IMG/VR virus record: IMGVR_UViG_3300033995_001164
Span: 62,001-126,000 of that record
Reading direction: 5' to 3' (one strand)
Length of the DNA: 64,000 nt
Source: a virus
The position numbers and the translations under genes are program-made. Below are positions 4,587 through 53,382 of this stretch, in pieces. Under the pieces are notes generated by a model, which saw nothing but the letters and a program-made list of their open reading frames with translations, had not been told where the DNA came from and made no database searches. Every line of letters begins with the position of its first letter. Position 1 is the stretch's first letter.

Positions 4587-5483
4587 TTATAATATTTCAA
4601 AATAATATTCATCAATTTGACCTCTTAAGTCCGCAACATCCATATCTTTAGGTGGTTTAATTATTTTTATTTTATTATACAATCGACCGCCATTGAGTTC
4701 GTGATATAATTTTAATCCATCTTGAAAAGCGTCTTCATCAAGACAAATAATAATTTTACCCAATGCCTTCTCATATAAAGTTTCAAATAATAAATCACTC
4801 ATTTGCTTACCTAACATCACTATTGAATTATCCAAGAAAAATCCATCAAAAGCTCCCTCAACCAGATAAACATCTTTAAACCAATCAATACGATTTTCAT
4901 TAAAAATTATTTGATTTTTTTCAGCCGTTGGATTTTTATATTTCATTCTACCATTAACCCACGAACGAGCAACAAAATAATTTAACTTATTATTTTTATC
5001 AAATGATGGCACGATAACTCTATACGCAAATTCACCACTCACTGTATAACCTATTTGATATTTCTCAATTATTTCATCCGTAATCCCTCGAGAAGTTAAA
5101 TATCTATAAGCCTCCGCGTGTGGAATGAATCTTGGGTTGGAATCTTTGAATTGGGTGTACCCCTCAGGAAGTTTTAATTGAGTTTTTTTGGATTCTTTAA
5201 TTTTTAATTCCTCGGGTTTTACTAAGTTATAAATCTTTTTTTGTTCTTTAGTTCCATATCTATCAAATAATCTACCCAGAGGTCCGTGCATATTATTTTC
5301 ATCATCACAAGACCAACAATGAAATAAATGTTTTTCTAATGAAATTTCCAAATTACCTTTTTTTTGACCAACCCCACATTCAGGACAATTATACCCATAT
5401 TGTAATTTTGAATCATACGTCTTTTCAGGGTCTCCCAAAATTTCACATAAAATATCTAAAAGTATGTCTTTATCATCTACCAT
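4587..5483 (-). CDS. 61: DNA primase, DnaG/gp61-like with CHC2-type zinc finger and TOPRIM
   Basis: Numbering from the ATG at 5483 (298 aa; a GTG two codons upstream is also open). Residues 33-59 carry a zinc finger, YNCPECG ... FHCWSCD, with C33, C36, C59 and H55 or C56 as likely ligands; this is the template-recognition domain of bacterial and T4 primases. The TOPRIM core follows with E209 (YLVEGAFDG) and D249-x-D251 (ICLDEDA), the metal-binding residues for primer synthesis. The spacing matches short single-polypeptide phage primases. It would act with the helicase at 48180-50618. An HNH gene is inserted directly upstream. Confidence 0.9.
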   Translation of the reverse strand: MVDDKDILLDILCEILGDPEKTYDSKLQYGYNCPECGVGQKKGNLEISLEKHLFHCWSCDDENNMHGPLGRLFDRYGTKEQKKIYNLVKPEELKIKESKKTQLKLPEGYTQFKDSNPRFIPHAEAYRYLTSRGITDEIIEKYQIGYTVSGEFAYRVIVPSFDKNNKLNYFVARSWVNGRMKYKNPTAEKNQIIFNENRIDWFKDVYLVEGAFDGFFLDNSIVMLGKQMSDLLFETLYEKALGKIIICLDEDAFQDGLKLYHELNGGRLYNKIKIIKPPKDMDVADLRGQIDEYYFEIL

Positions 5484-5524
5484 AAACACAATTATAAGAA
5501 TAAAACACCATTATCCAAATTAAT

Positions 5525-6214
5525 TTAATCATTACCTTTACGTATATTATCTGTAGCCCATAAAGGTTGTAAATTATTTAACGAATTCACAATTTTAGGG
5601 TCAGAACCTTTTTCAAACTTACTAACAGGGATTATATGGTCAATATGCCACTTACCCCAATTATCCCAAGACATTCCTTCAGTAAATAAATTTTCCAGAT
5701 GATTTTTTAATTCTACCGCTGAATATCCTAAAATATCGTAGGTAGATGACTCTTTTTTACTGCCAAGTCGTCTAATAACCGAACCTAACATACTTCTCCA
5801 AGCATATATGTGAGGGTACCTAATATATCTTTTTTTGTAGTATTCGTTAAGTTTTTCATGATTATTTTTCGAATAGTTTTTAACTCTTTTTTTATGTGTC
5901 TCAGAAAACCCTGAAAAATTATTATAATTATATTTAAATTTATCACTACGACATTTTTTACAGACAGACCTATAACCATCTTTACTACTAATATGTTTAT
6001 GAAATTCACCAACACCTTTTTCAATTAAACAAATAGAACAAGTTTTACTATTTATAACAATCTTTTTATTTTTCCTATTTGTATGATATTCCTTCTTACT
6101 AATAATTTTACGACATTCTTTGCATTGATAATATCGTCCATCTTTCTCCCTAATATGATAATGAAATTCACAAACATCTTTTTCAATTAAACATTTACTA
6201 CATATTTTTCTCAT
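5525..6214 (-). CDS. HNH homing-type endonuclease with two N-terminal zinc ribbons
   Basis: The 229-residue protein begins with two tandem zinc ribbons, C5/C8 with C31/C34 and C58/C61 with C84/C87, both built on C-x-x-C-L-I-E-K ... F-H-x-H-I ... K-D-G. A basic linker follows, then an HNH nuclease domain with H190-I-D192-H193 (WHIDHIIP) and the closing NNLQPLWATDN...KG. The preceding ILGYSAVELKNHL...GMSWDNWG is shared in style with the three other HNH proteins of the window. Its start overlaps an RHH gene by 17 nt. It is a free-standing, probably mobile gene between primase and a small membrane protein. It may cleave phage genomes lacking the insert. Confidence 0.88.
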   Translation of the reverse strand: MRKICSKCLIEKDVCEFHYHIREKDGRYYQCKECRKIISKKEYHTNRKNKKIVINSKTCSICLIEKGVGEFHKHISSKDGYRSVCKKCRSDKFKYNYNNFSGFSETHKKRVKNYSKNNHEKLNEYYKKRYIRYPHIYAWRSMLGSVIRRLGSKKESSTYDILGYSAVELKNHLENLFTEGMSWDNWGKWHIDHIIPVSKFEKGSDPKIVNSLNNLQPLWATDNIRKGND

Positions 6215-6356
6215 TACTAAAATACTTTATTAATAATTTATTAACCAATGACGACAAATTAATAGATTTATCTCTAACAATTTTTTCAATATTAGGGTCT
6301 ATAGTGATAGACATCCTAATTTTCTTTTCTTCTAACTTTATTTGTTTACGTCCCAT
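6198..6356 (-). CDS. Ribbon-helix-helix type small protein paired with an HNH endonuclease
   Basis: Read by eye: ATG at 6356, TAG at 6198-6200, 52 aa. The protein starts MGRKQIKLEEKK, has a beta-strand-like RMSITIDP, then two helices ending INLSSLVNKLLIKYF. This order (basic arm, one strand, helix-turn-helix of RHH type) matches small Arc/MetJ/CopG DNA-binding proteins. A close relative (50 aa; shared SIDP/TIDP and DKSINLSSLVNKLL) precedes the HNH gene at 52458. Here the stop codon lies inside the HNH gene (17-nt overlap), so the two are probably translationally coupled. An autoregulator or DNA-binding partner of the nuclease is the natural guess. Confidence 0.75.
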   Translation of the reverse strand: MGRKQIKLEEKKIRMSITIDPNIEKIVRDKSINLSSLVNKLLIKYFSNEKNM

Positions 6357-6426
6357 TTCAATAAATATATTACTTTTTGTTAAAGTATCATTTTTTTTAT
6401 AATAAAATTAATTTAATTTACCCTAA

Positions 6427-7615: not shown

Positions 7616-8416
7616 TTAAATAATTTTACTACCTTTTTTTATATTGTCGATAGCCCACATTGGTTGTAAGTTAGTAAAATGACAGAGATTGTAAAGTTCT
7701 TCCTCAGTTTTGGCACTTGATAATGGTATTTTGTGGTCAATATGCCATCCATAATATCCGTAATTATCCCATGACATTCCTTCATTAAATTTTTGTTCTA
7801 AATGTTCTTTCAAAAATTCAGGAGAACAACCTATAATGTTAAAACTTTTATTATTTTTTCTTACATCTTTTAATTTAACATAAAAAAGTAACCTATTTCT
7901 AAGATTATGTTTTAATCTTTCGATTGGACATTTTTTTCGTTTATTTAACGAATTTGTAACCGACTTATTAATTAAATCTTTTTTATTTTTATCGTAATAT
8001 TCTTTCCATCTTTTTGTTTCTTTTTCAATATTATTTTTTCTATAATTTTTATTATATTCACCCCTTTTTTCTTTATTATTCGTATTTCTTTGTCTTGACT
8101 TCTCAATAAGAATTTCCCTATTTTTAGTATAATACTCTTTCCTTTTTATTAAAAGAATTTCCTTATTTTTTTCTATATATTCTTTCCTACCCTCTAAATT
8201 ATTAACATAATAATCTTTAAAATATAACTTAGTAACATCTTTTTTACTTTCTCGATATTTTTTTATTTTTTCAATATTTTTGTCATAATATTTTTTACTA
8301 ACATTTTTTCTACATTCTTTACAAATATTATTATACCCATCTTCCATACGACTATTCTTAAAAAAATATTCAACATTTTTTTCAAAGGCGCATTTATTAC
8401 ATTTTTTTGTATCCAT
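7616..8416 (-). CDS. HNH homing-type endonuclease
   Basis: The 266-residue protein has one N-terminal zinc ribbon (CNKC ... CKEC, residues 6-36), a long, very Lys/Asn-rich helical linker (about 40-165) and a C-terminal HNH domain with W-H-I-D-H-K-I-P-L-S and N-L-Q-P-M-W-A-I-D-N. The block SPEFLKEHLE...GMSWDN is nearly the same as in the HNH proteins at 33138 and 52458. Coding sequence is extremely A-rich, more so than its neighbours, which suits a laterally moving gene. It sits between a tail gene (6 nt) and the resolvase (1 nt), with no RHH partner. Confidence 0.88.
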   Translation of the reverse strand: MDTKKCNKCAFEKNVEYFFKNSRMEDGYNNICKECRKNVSKKYYDKNIEKIKKYRESKKDVTKLYFKDYYVNNLEGRKEYIEKNKEILLIKRKEYYTKNREILIEKSRQRNTNNKEKRGEYNKNYRKNNIEKETKRWKEYYDKNKKDLINKSVTNSLNKRKKCPIERLKHNLRNRLLFYVKLKDVRKNNKSFNIIGCSPEFLKEHLEQKFNEGMSWDNYGYYGWHIDHKIPLSSAKTEEELYNLCHFTNLQPMWAIDNIKKGSKII

Positions 8417-33137: not shown

Positions 33138-33905
33138 TTATATTGTCTTTAATATTTTATTTCCTTTTTTTAAATTATCTTCAGCCCATAATGGTTGAAG
33201 ATTCGTATAGTAACTAAGTTGGTAAATTTCTTCTTCAGTTTTAGATGAAGATAATGGTATTATGTGGTCTATATGCCACCCATATAATCCATAATTTTCC
33301 CAAGACATACCCTCCTTAAATTGTTTTTCCAAATGTTCTTTAAGAAATTCCGGAGTACATCCTACAATTTCAAAGGTTTTATTTTTTTTAGTTATAATGT
33401 TAAGTTTCAAATATTGACTTAATCTTCGTCTAATATTACTTGACATTTTTCTTTTTGGTTTTTGATTACTTTTCTTAAGGGTTTCTTTTATTTTTTCAGG
33501 ATTGTTTTCTCGATATTTTTTGTGAGATTCCATTATTTTTTCAATATTATTTTCTCTATATTGTTTACTATATTCCTTTATCTTTTCAATATTATTTTTT
33601 TTCCAAATTGATGAATTTTCAATAGATTTTTTAGAATTATTTTCATACCATTTTTGACTATAATCTTTTACCTTATCAGGGTTATTTTTTTTCCATTCTC
33701 TACTTCTTTGGATTTCTTTTTCAGAGTTTATTTTATACCAATTTTGACTTGTCTCTTTTTTCTTCTCTGAATTAAGTTCCATCCATTTTGAAACACGTTT
33801 TATATTACACGTTTTACATTCACTCCTCCTATAAAGTTTTTTCTCTAAATAAAAATCATCCAATGATTTTTCAATTAAACATTTAGTACAAACTTTTGTT
33901 TCCAT
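33138..33905 (-). CDS. HNH homing-type endonuclease in the baseplate operon
   Basis: The start is taken at the ATG at 33905 (METKVCTKC; an ATG two codons upstream at 33911 is equally possible). Longer readings would run into the upstream gene. One N-terminal zinc ribbon (CTKC ... CKTC), then a 120-residue Lys/Glu/Asn-rich helical linker with repeated ENNxEKIxE units, then the HNH domain (WHIDHIIPLSSSKTEEE ... NLQPLWAEDN). METKVC at the start is the same as in the HNH protein at 52458. A GGTATTTAT box stands just before the start. No RHH gene precedes it. Confidence 0.88.
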   Translation of the reverse strand: METKVCTKCLIEKSLDDFYLEKKLYRRSECKTCNIKRVSKWMELNSEKKKETSQNWYKINSEKEIQRSREWKKNNPDKVKDYSQKWYENNSKKSIENSSIWKKNNIEKIKEYSKQYRENNIEKIMESHKKYRENNPEKIKETLKKSNQKPKRKMSSNIRRRLSQYLKLNIITKKNKTFEIVGCTPEFLKEHLEKQFKEGMSWENYGLYGWHIDHIIPLSSSKTEEEIYQLSYYTNLQPLWAEDNLKKGNKILKTI

Positions 33906-33936
33906 ATTCATAAATACCTTATCTCTTTTTTTTCTG

Positions 33937-35028
33937 TTAATTTTCTTTATTAATGACATTGAAGAACCCAAACCCATAGTTAATCATGTCACCAAGGTTA
34001 TCTACCTCACCTAATCTTTGTATTCTCTCATACGCGGAGTTTTTACCTCTTTCAACAAAAACATTAGTTTGAACCTGTGCTTGGTCAATAACTTTGAGTA
34101 ATACCTCATCTTTAGTTATTGGAACCGCAGTTATATTATTTTCCGTAAGTCCTGATGATTGTACGAAATAAATTGTGGTACCATCAATGTAATCATAGTA
34201 ATTAATTTCAGTAATTGTATAAGCAGTATAAATTGAAGTAACATCTGTTATTGCTCCCCATATTTGACCATTACTAATCACAGGAACCCCAATTCGTTCA
34301 TTAATTGTTGGATTACCATACATTTTTAACTCATTAATTCTCGACTTAGTAATTCCTGATACGGTAAACGGTATTGAAACATAATTGTTAGAGGTTTGAG
34401 CAGATACTTCATTAATCGCATCCCCAGAAAATATATAATCATAAGATACCGAAGTCCCAACCCAATTCCCTGAAGAAGGAGCAAAAAATGCTTCACCCTG
34501 TGGGTTGTAAATTACAACATCACTAAATGGAACCGTTATTGTTTTTGAAACACTGGTAATGCCCCAAGGATTTGTTTGTTCTAATTTAATCGTATATTCT
34601 TTATTCTCAACAGGGTATGTGTGATTAATTGAATTAGGTGCGTAATTAGTGATAGTTTGTTTTGGGGAACCGTCACCCCAATCAATCTTATATGAAGATA
34701 AATCTAAAAATTTTTGGAACTCATCCGACGTATTATAAACATTGTAAAGGTAAGGGGATGATGTTGTTGAAGAAAATATAAAATTTGCAACAACATTTTT
34801 TTGTAATACCGCACCATCAAATGGACTATAATACCCGGTATCAACCGCACTTTGTCTAATCAAAATAGGTATAGTCAATCCGGTTAATAAGGAACTACCA
34901 TTAACACCCGAACTAACAACTTGGGTCATTGCAGAATAAACACCAACGGGTGTCCCTTCATAATCAACAACGAATAAATCCCCAAGAATCGTTTCCGGTG
35001 ATATTTTAATATTATAAAAATCTTCCAT
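33937..35028 (-). CDS. Baseplate/tail structural protein with a PKD-like domain
   Basis: The 363-residue protein contains at about 115-172 a PKD-like Ig domain: KIDWGDGSPKQTITNY followed by HTYPVENKEYTIKLEQ, with the W-G-D-G-S and H-x-Y hallmarks. PKD domains occur in extracellular and virion proteins as spacers or sugar-binding modules. The C-terminus has conserved-looking ERGKNSAYERIQRLGEVDNLGDMINYGFGFFNV, probably an assembly helix. It overlaps neighbours by 1 nt upstream. A structural role in the baseplate is inferred from context only. Confidence 0.72.
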   Translation of the reverse strand: MEDFYNIKISPETILGDLFVVDYEGTPVGVYSAMTQVVSSGVNGSSLLTGLTIPILIRQSAVDTGYYSPFDGAVLQKNVVANFIFSSTTSSPYLYNVYNTSDEFQKFLDLSSYKIDWGDGSPKQTITNYAPNSINHTYPVENKEYTIKLEQTNPWGITSVSKTITVPFSDVVIYNPQGEAFFAPSSGNWVGTSVSYDYIFSGDAINEVSAQTSNNYVSIPFTVSGITKSRINELKMYGNPTINERIGVPVISNGQIWGAITDVTSIYTAYTITEINYYDYIDGTTIYFVQSSGLTENNITAVPITKDEVLLKVIDQAQVQTNVFVERGKNSAYERIQRLGEVDNLGDMINYGFGFFNVINKEN

Positions 35029-48179: not shown

Positions 48180-50618
48180 TTAATTTTGTTGTGATTCTCT
48201 TTGTTTTCTTTTTTCTAAAAGTTCTTTAACTCTATCTCTTTTTCTATCTTCTTGTTGTTCTTCAAACCCTAAGAAAGTGACTGAACTTTCTGTATCAATT
48301 TCAAGTAATTCATTATTAAATTTACAATTTTCAAATACTACCCCATCTTTTCCAAGACGAGATTTAGTGATTGCAATTGTCGCTAAATTCATTTCTTTTT
48401 GTGTCAATGTTTTTGCAACCGATATAATAACGTGTCCTACTTGAGCCTTTTTGATTGACCCCCCCATTTGGTCAGTTGTTACTACCTCAGCAGATATTGA
48501 AGACCTATTACCTTGTGTTGCCGTCCACCCGACTAAATCAAGTTCGTGACACATCGCCTCAAATCCTCTCATTACTGAACCTTCCGCTTTCCACTCATCT
48601 TTACTACTTGATTCCGGTAAAATACAATCAATGTAATCCACTAAAACTAAATCAATTTTAATACCGTCAGCAATCATTTTTCTAACTTGAGTTTTGATTT
48701 GATTCATTGTCATAGTGTCTGAAGCCAATTTCTTCAATATTAAACGATTTTGCATCGTTTCTTTAATTTCAGTAATTTTAGACATTACATCTTCTTTATG
48801 TAATACTAAATTATCCGGTTCAATACCTGTCCACATCGTAAAATGTTTTCTTTGGATAATTTTTGGGTTATCCTCGAAGAATATTTGTAAAACATTGTAA
48901 CCTAAATTAAAAGCAGTGTTTGCAATTTTTGATAAAATGGTTGTGTTATGTGTTAAAACATAATCTCTAGTCACGTATAACTCGTCCGGATTAGAAACTT
49001 TAATACAAGTCGCCTCCTCATCATGAGAATAAGTTATCGACTTGACATATTTCTGTTCAACATATTTCTCCCTCTTATAATATCTACCAACTTTTCTTAG
49101 TAATTTGAACGGAACAACGTCATTTGCAAAAGACATTGTTATCGTGTAAGCCAACTGACCCTCTTTCTTCTCTCCGTCATAAGTATAAGTCGGTATTTTA
49201 GTGTTAATTCGAACAGTTCCACCCAAAGATAAAACTAATTCCCTAACATTATTACACAATTGTTCCGATATCGTCGTAAATTGAACCGTCCCTTTTTTAT
49301 CAACATGCCCATCAGTATCCATTAAACCTTGTAATAATGAAACTCTTACATCTAATGAATTATAAAGATAATCTTTTGGTATAAATTTATTGTTAGACTT
49401 TTTATTTAACAAATCATAAACTTTTAGTCGTTCTTTTATTTTACCCTTTAAGTTTATTGATTTTATACTTTTAGTTTCAGTTCTATAATATTCATTAAAC
49501 GATGAATGTTCACCAAGACATTCAATGGAATCAAATAACTCATCGTCCTTAGTACTTATACGGACACCACTATCACAAATACTACCATCTCCCAACAATA
49601 ACCCAAGTAAATATGGGTCTATCAACACTTCTCTTTTTTCAAAATCGACCGGACTTACCACAGGTAATCTATAGTTATATCGACCTCTCTTCTTAATATC
49701 TTTCATCATATCAGAGGTTTTAACAACCTTATACCCATAGTTCGGTTTATAAACACCCTTACCATTAACCCTTGTTTTAGCGGTTCTCATGTTCAATGTA
49801 TTAACACTCCAAAGATGTTCTTCATCACAATTCACAAAAGTATCATCACTAAACTCTACTTTATAAATTGGTCTAACACCTTGTGGGTAAACACCTATCA
49901 CATATTGTTCTTTCCCATCACTACCAATAACCTTATCCCCAAGTTTTACTTCACCCATTTTTACCCATCCTTGAGGTGTTAAAACCGGTTCAGAGTTTGG
50001 ACAGCTCTTGCCAACACCTGTTGGTGCTAATATAACCCCAATTTCCCCTTTTGCTAAACCACCTTTCAATAATTTGTCAATTCCCGGAATACCCATTGGG
50101 ATTGGGTGTCGGTAGTCTTCGTCTAAGACAGTATCTAAATTTTCAAATATATCTGTCTGACCTTTATCAACCTCTCCGACCTGCAATGCGTCTCTCATCA
50201 AACCTTCAACTTTATCATATGATTCAAAGTCTCCTTGGGTAATAATTTTCTGAGCCTTATCCATCGCCTTCTGTAGTTCTTGTTGTTTACAAAATTTCAA
50301 CGCCTTCTCTTGAACGAACATTGTTCCTTCAATTGGAGCGTCCTGAATTTGTTTGATTGTATCTAAAACAATCTTAGCGACCATTTCCTGTGAGATTTCG
50401 GACCTAACAATTTGCCCTAAAGTATCAAAATTTGGTGTTGATTCATATTTTTTGTAGTACTCTTTTGTCATCTGTAAAATGATTTTAAAATACTTATTAT
50501 CAAAATACACTGACTCAATAACATCCATTATAGATGATGAAAAATCTTTATCTACTATTATCTGATTTAGTAATTGTATTTGAAATGTGTTACCTAAGTA
50601 ATCGAAATTTTTATTCAT
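48180..50618 (-). CDS. 41: Replicative DNA helicase, DnaB/gp41-like, interrupted by an intein
   Basis: The 812-residue precursor is helicase (1-205), intein (206-558), helicase (559-812); splicing would give 459 residues, near T4 gp41 (475). The N-terminal helicase half ends in the Walker A loop (APTGVGKS) and resumes with TT. The C-terminal half holds Walker B (LVLVDYIDC), a QGNRSS-type motif ([10 protein letters not shown]) and KSRLGKDG-like arginine-finger region. It unwinds DNA 5' to 3' at the fork with the primase at 4587. As the intein splits GKS/TT, the unspliced product should not bind ATP. Confidence 0.94.
48945..50003 (-). mobile_element. Intein with LAGLIDADG homing endonuclease in the helicase P-loop
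   Basis: The element codes for 353 residues. It begins with Cys ([19 protein letters not shown], block A) and ends with VLTHN (block G), followed by Thr as the +1 extein residue. A Hint-type block B-like region ([11 protein letters not shown]) follows block A. Two LAGLIDADG motifs, [11 protein letters not shown] (about intein residues 132-142) and [13 protein letters not shown] (about 223-234), mark an intact homing endonuclease domain. The insertion lies between Ser and Thr of GKS-TT. All splice residues (C1, H, N, T+1) are present, so it is probably active. Confidence 0.93.
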
Positions 50619-52457: not shown

Positions 52458-53189
52458 TTATACAATAATTTTGTTACTCTTTTTTAAATTATCTTCAGCC
52501 CATAATGGTTGAAGATTTTCATAATGACATAACTTATAAAGTTCGTCTTCTGTTTTTGCCGATGATAATGGAATGATGTGGTCAATATGCCACTCACCCC
52601 TGTTATCCCAACTCATACCATCGCTAAATTGGGTTTCTAAATGTTCTTTAAGAAATTCCGGTGAACACCCTACAATATCGAAAGTTTTATTAGTTTTACT
52701 AATGTTTCGGGTTTTAAGAAATGATAAAAGTCTAGACCTCATAATACATTTTAATCGAAAAATAACATCATTTTTTAATCTTAAAGAATGATAAAGATTT
52801 CTTTTTACTTTAACTTTTTCTTTATTTTTTTCTGACCACTCTTTTTTATAAGTTAAAATAGTTTCTTTATTATTTTCATAATATATTTTATACCGATTTG
52901 GGTCTTTTTGGTATCTTTTTTTTGACCTATCATTATCTTTTACCCTAATTACATCAATATTTTCTTCTCGGTAATTTTTAACTTTTAATAATATTTTTTC
53001 CCGGTTATCAATGTATTCTTTTCTTTTTTGAGCCTTTATTTTTTCATCGTTATTATCCCTATATTTTTTCCAAACCATATAAGAACATTGTTTACATTCA
53101 GTTCTAAACCCATCTTTAGAATCTTTTCTTTTTCTAAAATTAGGTAATTCTTTTTCAAGATTACACTTACTACAAACTTTAGTTTCCAT
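52458..53189 (-). CDS. HNH homing-type endonuclease paired with an RHH protein
   Basis: The 243-residue protein has one N-terminal zinc ribbon (CSKC ... CKQC), a long basic helical linker and an HNH domain (EWHIDHIIPLSSAKTEDE ... NLQPLWAEDNLKKSN). SPEFLKEHLE...GMSWDN is shared with the proteins at 7616 and 33138. Its start overlaps the RHH gene by 11 nt. It separates RNase H and UvsX, two core replication genes, a typical site for homing genes, and ends 16 nt above the RNase H start. Confidence 0.88.
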   Translation of the reverse strand: METKVCSKCNLEKELPNFRKRKDSKDGFRTECKQCSYMVWKKYRDNNDEKIKAQKRKEYIDNREKILLKVKNYREENIDVIRVKDNDRSKKRYQKDPNRYKIYYENNKETILTYKKEWSEKNKEKVKVKRNLYHSLRLKNDVIFRLKCIMRSRLLSFLKTRNISKTNKTFDIVGCSPEFLKEHLETQFSDGMSWDNRGEWHIDHIIPLSSAKTEDELYKLCHYENLQPLWAEDNLKKSNKIIV

Positions 53190-53331
53190 TTCTAATATAT
53201 TCTTTTAATAATTTATTAACAAGGGAAGATAAATTTATAGATTTATCCTTAAAGTACTGTGGAAGTTCTGGGTCTATTGAGACTCCAATCTTAACTTTCT
53301 TTTCAATTTCTTCTTTTTTCTTTCTTCCCAT
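53179..53331 (-). CDS. Ribbon-helix-helix type small protein paired with an HNH endonuclease
   Basis: Read by eye: ATG at 53331, TAA at 53179-53181, 50 aa. It starts MGRKKKEEIEKKVKIGV, has the strand VKIGVSIDP, then helices ending DKSINLSSLVNKLL. Eleven or more residues in this C-terminal block are identical to the protein at 6198. The stop codon lies within the HNH gene (overlap 53179-53189). The pairing at two separate loci argues for a functional unit rather than chance. Confidence 0.78.
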   Translation of the reverse strand: MGRKKKEEIEKKVKIGVSIDPELPQYFKDKSINLSSLVNKLLKEYIRNGN

Positions 53332-53382
53332 ATTAATAAATATCTACAAATGTAATAAAAGTAGAATAATTATAACTTTTTT

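Follow-up and report, generated by a model that had tools for sequence, protein, structure and literature searches.

Why should a gene for a protein of 50 or 52 amino acids stand directly in front of an endonuclease gene, and overlap it, at two separate places in the genome of one virus? The question is raised by the window analysed here, a stretch of 64,000 nucleotides (bases 62001-126000 of a 309,177-base IMG/VR virus record), in which a small ribbon-helix-helix (RHH) protein had been predicted twice upstream of an HNH endonuclease. The gene content of the window is T4-like, with uvsX, a primase and a helicase with an intein; this intein, at 48180-50618 on the minus strand, has LAGLIDADG-like motifs and lies inside the DnaB-like helicase gene. 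The host of this giant bacterial virus is likely to belong to the Bacteroidota, since the closest cultured match of the window uvsX is that of Flavobacterium phage immuto (37%), and since a Shine-Dalgarno-like motif was absent at all of the 25 window genes checked.

Two RHH-HNH gene pairs beside replication and recombination genes

The two loci, referred to as modules 1 and 2, are composed of the following features:

6361-6386, minus strand: promoter-like box of module 1 with candidate operator region, ACTTTA-N12-ATATTTAT
6198-6356, minus strand: RHH protein of module 1, 52 aa
5525-6214, minus strand: EndoVII-like HNH protein of module 1, predicted free-standing homing endonuclease, 229 aa (phrog_1035, E=6e-28)
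53336-53362, minus strand: promoter-like box of module 2, ACTTTTATTACATTTGTAGATATTTAT, the sole match within the window
53179-53331, minus strand: RHH protein of module 2, 50 aa, directly behind uvsX
52458-53189, minus strand: zinc-ribbon EndoVII-like HNH protein of module 2, predicted homing endonuclease, 243 aa (phrog_1035, E=4e-25)

Both predicted gene pairs were confirmed as open reading frames, with the RHH and HNH genes sharing 17 nt in module 1 and 11 nt in module 2, and the gene adjoining module 1 (4587-5489), proposed to be a primase, indeed matches DNA primase (phrog_47, E=1e-40). The two RHH proteins are 54% identical. The box of module 1 ends 4 nt upstream of the RHH startcodon, other modules being arranged likewise, and 4 nt also separate box and RHH startcodon in module 2. 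The HNH protein of module 1 contains two CxxC...CxxC zinc ribbons, and the EndoVII-like HNH proteins have an invariant WHIDH...NLQPLW...DN motif; a comparison of the HNH protein with sequences of solved structures gave no match. Known RNAs in the vicinity of the module genes, among them a group I intron, were ruled out, as the window contained neither an Rfam match nor a tRNA.

The small protein resembles CopG and Arc

The small protein had been called a DNA-binding RHH protein from its sequence, an assignment that a model of another fold would have overturned, and it has withstood both profile searches and structure prediction. Profiles matched were CcdA (E=8e-5, above the curated cut-off, for copy 2), BrnA and an Arc-like repressor (PHROG), while the AlphaFold single-chain model, built on 47 relatives (mean pLDDT 85), consists of an extended stretch and helices at residues 21-29 and 34-49, the strand-helix-helix order in approximately 45 residues that is seen in CopG/Arc-type RHH proteins. 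CopG itself has 45 amino acids. The best PDB matches of the model were the CopG-DNA complex and Arc, then CdbA, all of them non-significant for this 52-residue chain (E>0.1). The model for the second RHH clade has a similar shape (pLDDT 77) and gave a single weak match, to MatP. The RHH profile was also searched against sequences of solved structures, and the only matches, to designed repeat proteins over 14 residues, were disregarded. The RHH protein is thus modelled like CopG and Arc, and would bind DNA as a dimer. It is also in use, being under purifying selection: the dN/dS ratio is about 0.18 for clade 1, calculated without the overlap, and 0.08 for clade 2.

The CcdA/BrnA-like profile and the antitoxin-first gene order are features expected of a type II toxin-antitoxin system, with the RHH protein as antitoxin and the nuclease as toxin. 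However, the chain finishes at helix 2 (residue 49 of 52) and therefore has no room for the C-terminal toxin-binding region of such antitoxins; the partners belong to four unrelated folds, the nuclease has repeatedly been lost or kept alone, and the genes are inserted precisely beside replication genes in the manner of homing genes (see below). We consider a toxin-antitoxin function to be extremely unlikely.

RHH genes and nucleases in the phage record

The record was examined around nuclease genes and box matches, and all four same-family RHH copies found (4/4) directly overlap an HNH gene, one of them behind the DNA polymerase gene, which is an association well beyond chance. There are seven HNH genes of this family in the record, and three of these lack an RHH gene:

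7616-8416, minus strand: HNH gene of the same family without RHH gene
33138-33977, minus strand: HNH gene of the same family without RHH gene
196222 of the genome (L179): HNH gene of the same family without RHH gene

In the last of these a helix-turn-helix-like segment at the N-terminus replaces the zinc ribbon. Scanning the record for the box ACTTTT-N8-20-ATATTTAT gave 10 matches, versus one for a reversed-pattern control, and exposed two modules unseen by homology. In one of them the gene for a 53-aa RHH protein shares 17 nt with that of a LAGLIDADG endonuclease, and in the other the gene for a 45-aa RHH protein shares 14 nt with that of a GIY-YIG/NUMOD3 endonuclease. The same promoter box also occurs at a gene combining a helix-turn-helix with a McrA-type HNH domain (L182, genome about 239.6-240.4 kb), which has no RHH gene.

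Partner nucleases in uncultured phages

We then tabulated the neighbours of the RHH genes in uncultured phages, for which 127 distinct RHH proteins were assembled from the viral collection. Clades 1 and 2 accounted for 122 of these, and as seven were located at contig ends, 115 were scored; nucleases were initially assigned to classes by their motifs, with rows classed as 'other' sorted by eye, and domains were assigned using Pfam. Had the relatives of the small protein been found mostly away from nuclease genes, the proposed unit would have had to be abandoned, but about 104 of the 115 untruncated clade 1 and 2 proteins, taken from the best-scoring loci on partly redundant contigs, overlap a homing nuclease. 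The partners are 74 HNH, 27 LAGLIDADG (one broken), two NUMOD3 plus TnsA-like PD-(D/E)XK and one GIY-YIG protein, and in the small third RHH clade (seven loci) the partner is GIY-YIG in all. Examples supported by Pfam are L177 (LAGLIDADG), L351 (GIY-YIG), and L023 and L269 (NUMOD3 plus TnsA-like PD-(D/E)XK), while L183 was assigned to GIY-YIG through its NUMOD3/I-HmuI-like domains and YIG motif. The exceptions among the 115 comprise three RHH genes that come first in a tandem pair, others whose nuclease is deleted or broken, and two further genes. Tandem RHH genes upstream of an HNH gene were seen in L098, L247 and L354. No convincing RHH relatives were detected in cultured phage records or in 84,980 prokaryote genomes.

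The pairing with HNH genes was thus rightly seen as recurrent but drawn too narrowly, as the partner can be any of four unrelated homing-nuclease folds. Across these four folds and the three RHH clades the overlap of the two genes is nearly always 8-23 nt. Homing-type catalytic domains are present throughout, EndoVII-like HNH in the window and LAGLIDADG, GIY-YIG/NUMOD3 or TnsA-like in the sister modules, from which we infer that the nucleases are cleaving, homing endonucleases. One RHH clade has mostly LAGLIDADG partners, with zinc-ribbon HNH proteins in L099, L205, L207 and L232, and the HNH proteins encoded behind near-identical RHH proteins are merely about 50% identical; judged from these sequences, nucleases have been exchanged behind the RHH gene.

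It had also been suggested that the small protein targets the nuclease, that is, acts as its DNA-targeting or specificity subunit. RHH proteins bind DNA, and the two genes are almost always neighbours, as this would require. A specific protein partner for the RHH protein is unlikely, however, because its partners comprise four unrelated folds, each with DNA-binding parts of its own (zinc ribbons, NUMOD3). HNH relatives of the same family also occur at the same insertion sites without an RHH gene (L151, L159 and L435). Targeting is therefore disfavoured, and a role as specificity subunit seems very improbable.

An intact RHH frame beside a decayed nuclease was found in at least six cases (L019, L027, L200, L201, L208 and L303), and HNH genes persist without an RHH gene in L151, L159 and L435 as well as in the three cases in the phage record. 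The pair is not obligatory, since solo RHH genes and RHH-less HNH genes both occur. An RHH gene alone beside an intein-containing Dcm methyltransferase gene was seen in L019, L027 and L028; the related L023 has no intein, and has an RHH gene with the NUMOD3/TnsA-like nuclease. Retention of the RHH gene after decay of the nuclease would be explained if the RHH protein provided immunity in trans, silencing incoming modules of the same clade, for which the candidate operator described below is suitably common within a clade. Against this, the retention may simply reflect recent decay, and the RHH gene is lost as well (L435, and a truncated frame in L163). On balance, immunity as the function of the RHH protein is improbable.

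Joint insertion at the uvsX site

The junction between uvsX and the exonuclease gene, where module 2 is located, allows occupied and empty alleles of a conserved intergenic site to be compared, as is usual for free-standing homing endonucleases. This junction is empty at 33 loci and contains RHH plus HNH genes at 34 (including the window's own copy), an HNH gene alone at one and a Dam or Dcm methyltransferase at five, with the remaining loci ending too early to be classified. The five loci with a Dam- or Dcm-type methyltransferase in place of the homing module are L391, L405, L412, L421 and L427. The flanks of the empty L404 and the occupied L433 are nearly identical, and the unit in L433 starts directly past the uvsX stopcodon, spans promoter, RHH and HNH genes, and replaces ten bases (TATCCCGAAG). 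Comparison of these alleles shows, for the uvsX site only, that promoter, RHH gene and HNH gene insert together, and in combination with the conserved overlap this supports the transmissible two-gene unit of the original prediction.

A promoter-like box and a candidate operator

In most modules the RHH startcodon lies 4-7 nt past the ATATTTAT of the box. The box is also found, in most cases further away, upstream of tail-sheath genes, capsid-related genes and others, and of 85 matches to ACGCACTTTT-N-ATATTTAT, 53 belong to RHH genes and the remainder lie elsewhere. A module-specific box was rejected, as structural genes have it too. Because it also precedes structural genes, the box is more readily seen as a late promoter, and its position suggests that the leader of the RHH genes is very short.

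Only the sequence 5' of ACTTTT is private to the modules. In clade 2, (A/G)ACGCACTTT is conserved in 24 unrelated contexts, even at loci where it has moved closer to the ATATTTAT box, while the sequence 5' of ACTTTT in clade 1 is subgroup-specific. Summed over positions -14 to -1, the information amounts to about 14 bits for clade 2 and 6 bits for clade 1, versus less than 1 bit in 41 ordinary copies of the box, and this makes the conserved, clade-specific stretch a candidate operator. Between modules in unrelated DNA, similarity of the upstream element correlates with that of the RHH protein (rho 0.52, versus 0.01 for the flanks), which is consistent with an operator that is passed on together with its repressor, though binding is not thereby proven and, as the operator adjoins the RHH gene, plain co-inheritance may be sufficient. 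Co-evolution of RHH strand residues with operator bases was not supported, since the DNA-facing strand residues had little explanatory value once overall RHH similarity was taken into account (partial rho 0.07). In L533-L539, a direct repeat of TATACTTTTT is located about one helical turn upstream of the startcodon of the GIY-YIG-linked RHH gene, and is a possible RHH operator.

Proposed mode of action

The explanation that we favour, and regard as probably correct, is a self-contained homing module with an autorepressing RHH protein and coupled, low-level translation of the nuclease. In such a module, the phage promoter would be of the type used for structural genes but supplemented with an operator. 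It would be followed by a gene for a CopG/Arc-like RHH repressor and, overlapping this, the gene for the homing endonuclease, whose startcodon, 8-23 nt ahead of the RHH stopcodon, would give low, coupled translation. On entry the promoter would be free, and the RHH protein would be made together with a little nuclease by termination-reinitiation; RHH dimers would then build up, occupy the clade-specific sequence that covers the promoter, and thereby switch the operon off. The outcome would be a brief, low pulse of nuclease, sufficient for homing at sites beside replication and recombination genes. Unrelated nuclease folds could be exchanged behind one RHH gene because control would be transcriptional and translational, and would not depend on contact with the enzyme. 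The earlier suggestion that the small protein restrains the nuclease is thus likely to be right, albeit via expression rather than via protein-protein inhibition, and the small gene is most likely a portable volume control for selfish genes. An extension of this scheme, in which promoter, operator and RHH gene form a portable cassette that has captured at least four nuclease folds, and which also provides clade-specific immunity in trans against modules with the same operator, is possible but doubtful.

Alternatively, the RHH frame may chiefly be a portable upstream reading frame, which provides termination-reinitiation for the nuclease wherever it inserts, with the protein itself being secondary. 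The overlap, which almost invariably measures 8-23 nt in all three RHH clades and with all four folds, agrees with this, and the RHH-less HNH genes (L151, L159, L435 and window 7616) start 2-9 nt after the stopcodon of the neighbouring phage gene, as if any upstream frame could serve them; T4 segC, segF, mobA and mobC overlap upstream reading frames in a similar way (PMC2988022). A bare leader frame would, however, need neither the purifying selection on the RHH protein nor the conserved clade-specific upstream sequence, and we consider this alternative unlikely.

Two other forms of translational control were discarded: a conserved hairpin masking the nuclease start, as in T4 mobE/segB, left no fold signal at 95 starts (mean z 0.09), and Shine-Dalgarno control was dismissed as the motif is absent from every window gene checked.

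Comparison with known systems

The proposed autorepressed homing module combines elements that are known separately. In T4, I-TevI represses its own late promoter (PMC2988022), and together with other autorepressing T4 intron endonucleases it resembles the modules in having a homing operon with a late promoter and an overlapping repressor site, both of which are candidates in the modules. The endonuclease itself is the repressor in I-TevI, whereas in the modules the proposed repressor is a separate, co-travelling RHH gene, alongside which the nuclease may also repress itself in the manner of I-TevI. The free-standing T4 endonucleases overlap upstream reading frames by 11-24 nt, with low translation via ribosome scanning proposed, and segC, segF, mobA and mobC are intergenic, located beside replication or recombination genes and overlap upstream, like the modules (PMC2988022). 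They overlap any upstream phage gene, while the RHH modules carry an upstream frame and promoter of their own. On plasmid pMV158, copG, which encodes an RHH repressor, shares a transcript with a downstream effector gene under its control (PMC5717011), and a very small RHH gene thus comes first there too, although the effector (repB) is a plasmid replication initiator, versus a homing endonuclease in a phage of lytic type. CcdAB and BrnTA similarly have an RHH gene of similar sequence profile beside a toxin or nuclease gene, but the RHH proteins of the modules are without a C-terminal toxin-binding tail and have interchangeable partners of four folds. Finally, in Rhizobium phage 16-3 (L527, 53120-54080) the 69-aa p099 overlaps the EndoVII-like HNH gene p100 by 47 nt, near a DNA polymerase/primase gene. 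While p099 looks like an XRE helix-turn-helix protein and not RHH, this pair is apparently an independent version of the regulator-nuclease arrangement, in a cultured phage.

The pair had been thought to be undescribed, and we found no description of RHH or CopG proteins with homing endonucleases in the open-access literature. If the proposed mechanism is correct, a dedicated co-travelling repressor, common to four unrelated nuclease folds, would be a general way for a selfish nuclease to limit damage to its carrier wherever it inserts. The arrangement itself can serve as a sequence signature in searches for further units in uncultured phages, and it opens the control of phage homing genes, and their exclusion, to direct testing. 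If immunity is also conferred, the selfish genes of these phages would fall into immunity groups, as temperate phages do. Free-standing homing endonucleases are known to borrow the expression signals of their neighbours or, in the case of I-TevI, to repress themselves; against this background of known homing genes and known autorepression, a separate RHH gene travelling across nuclease folds appears to be new.
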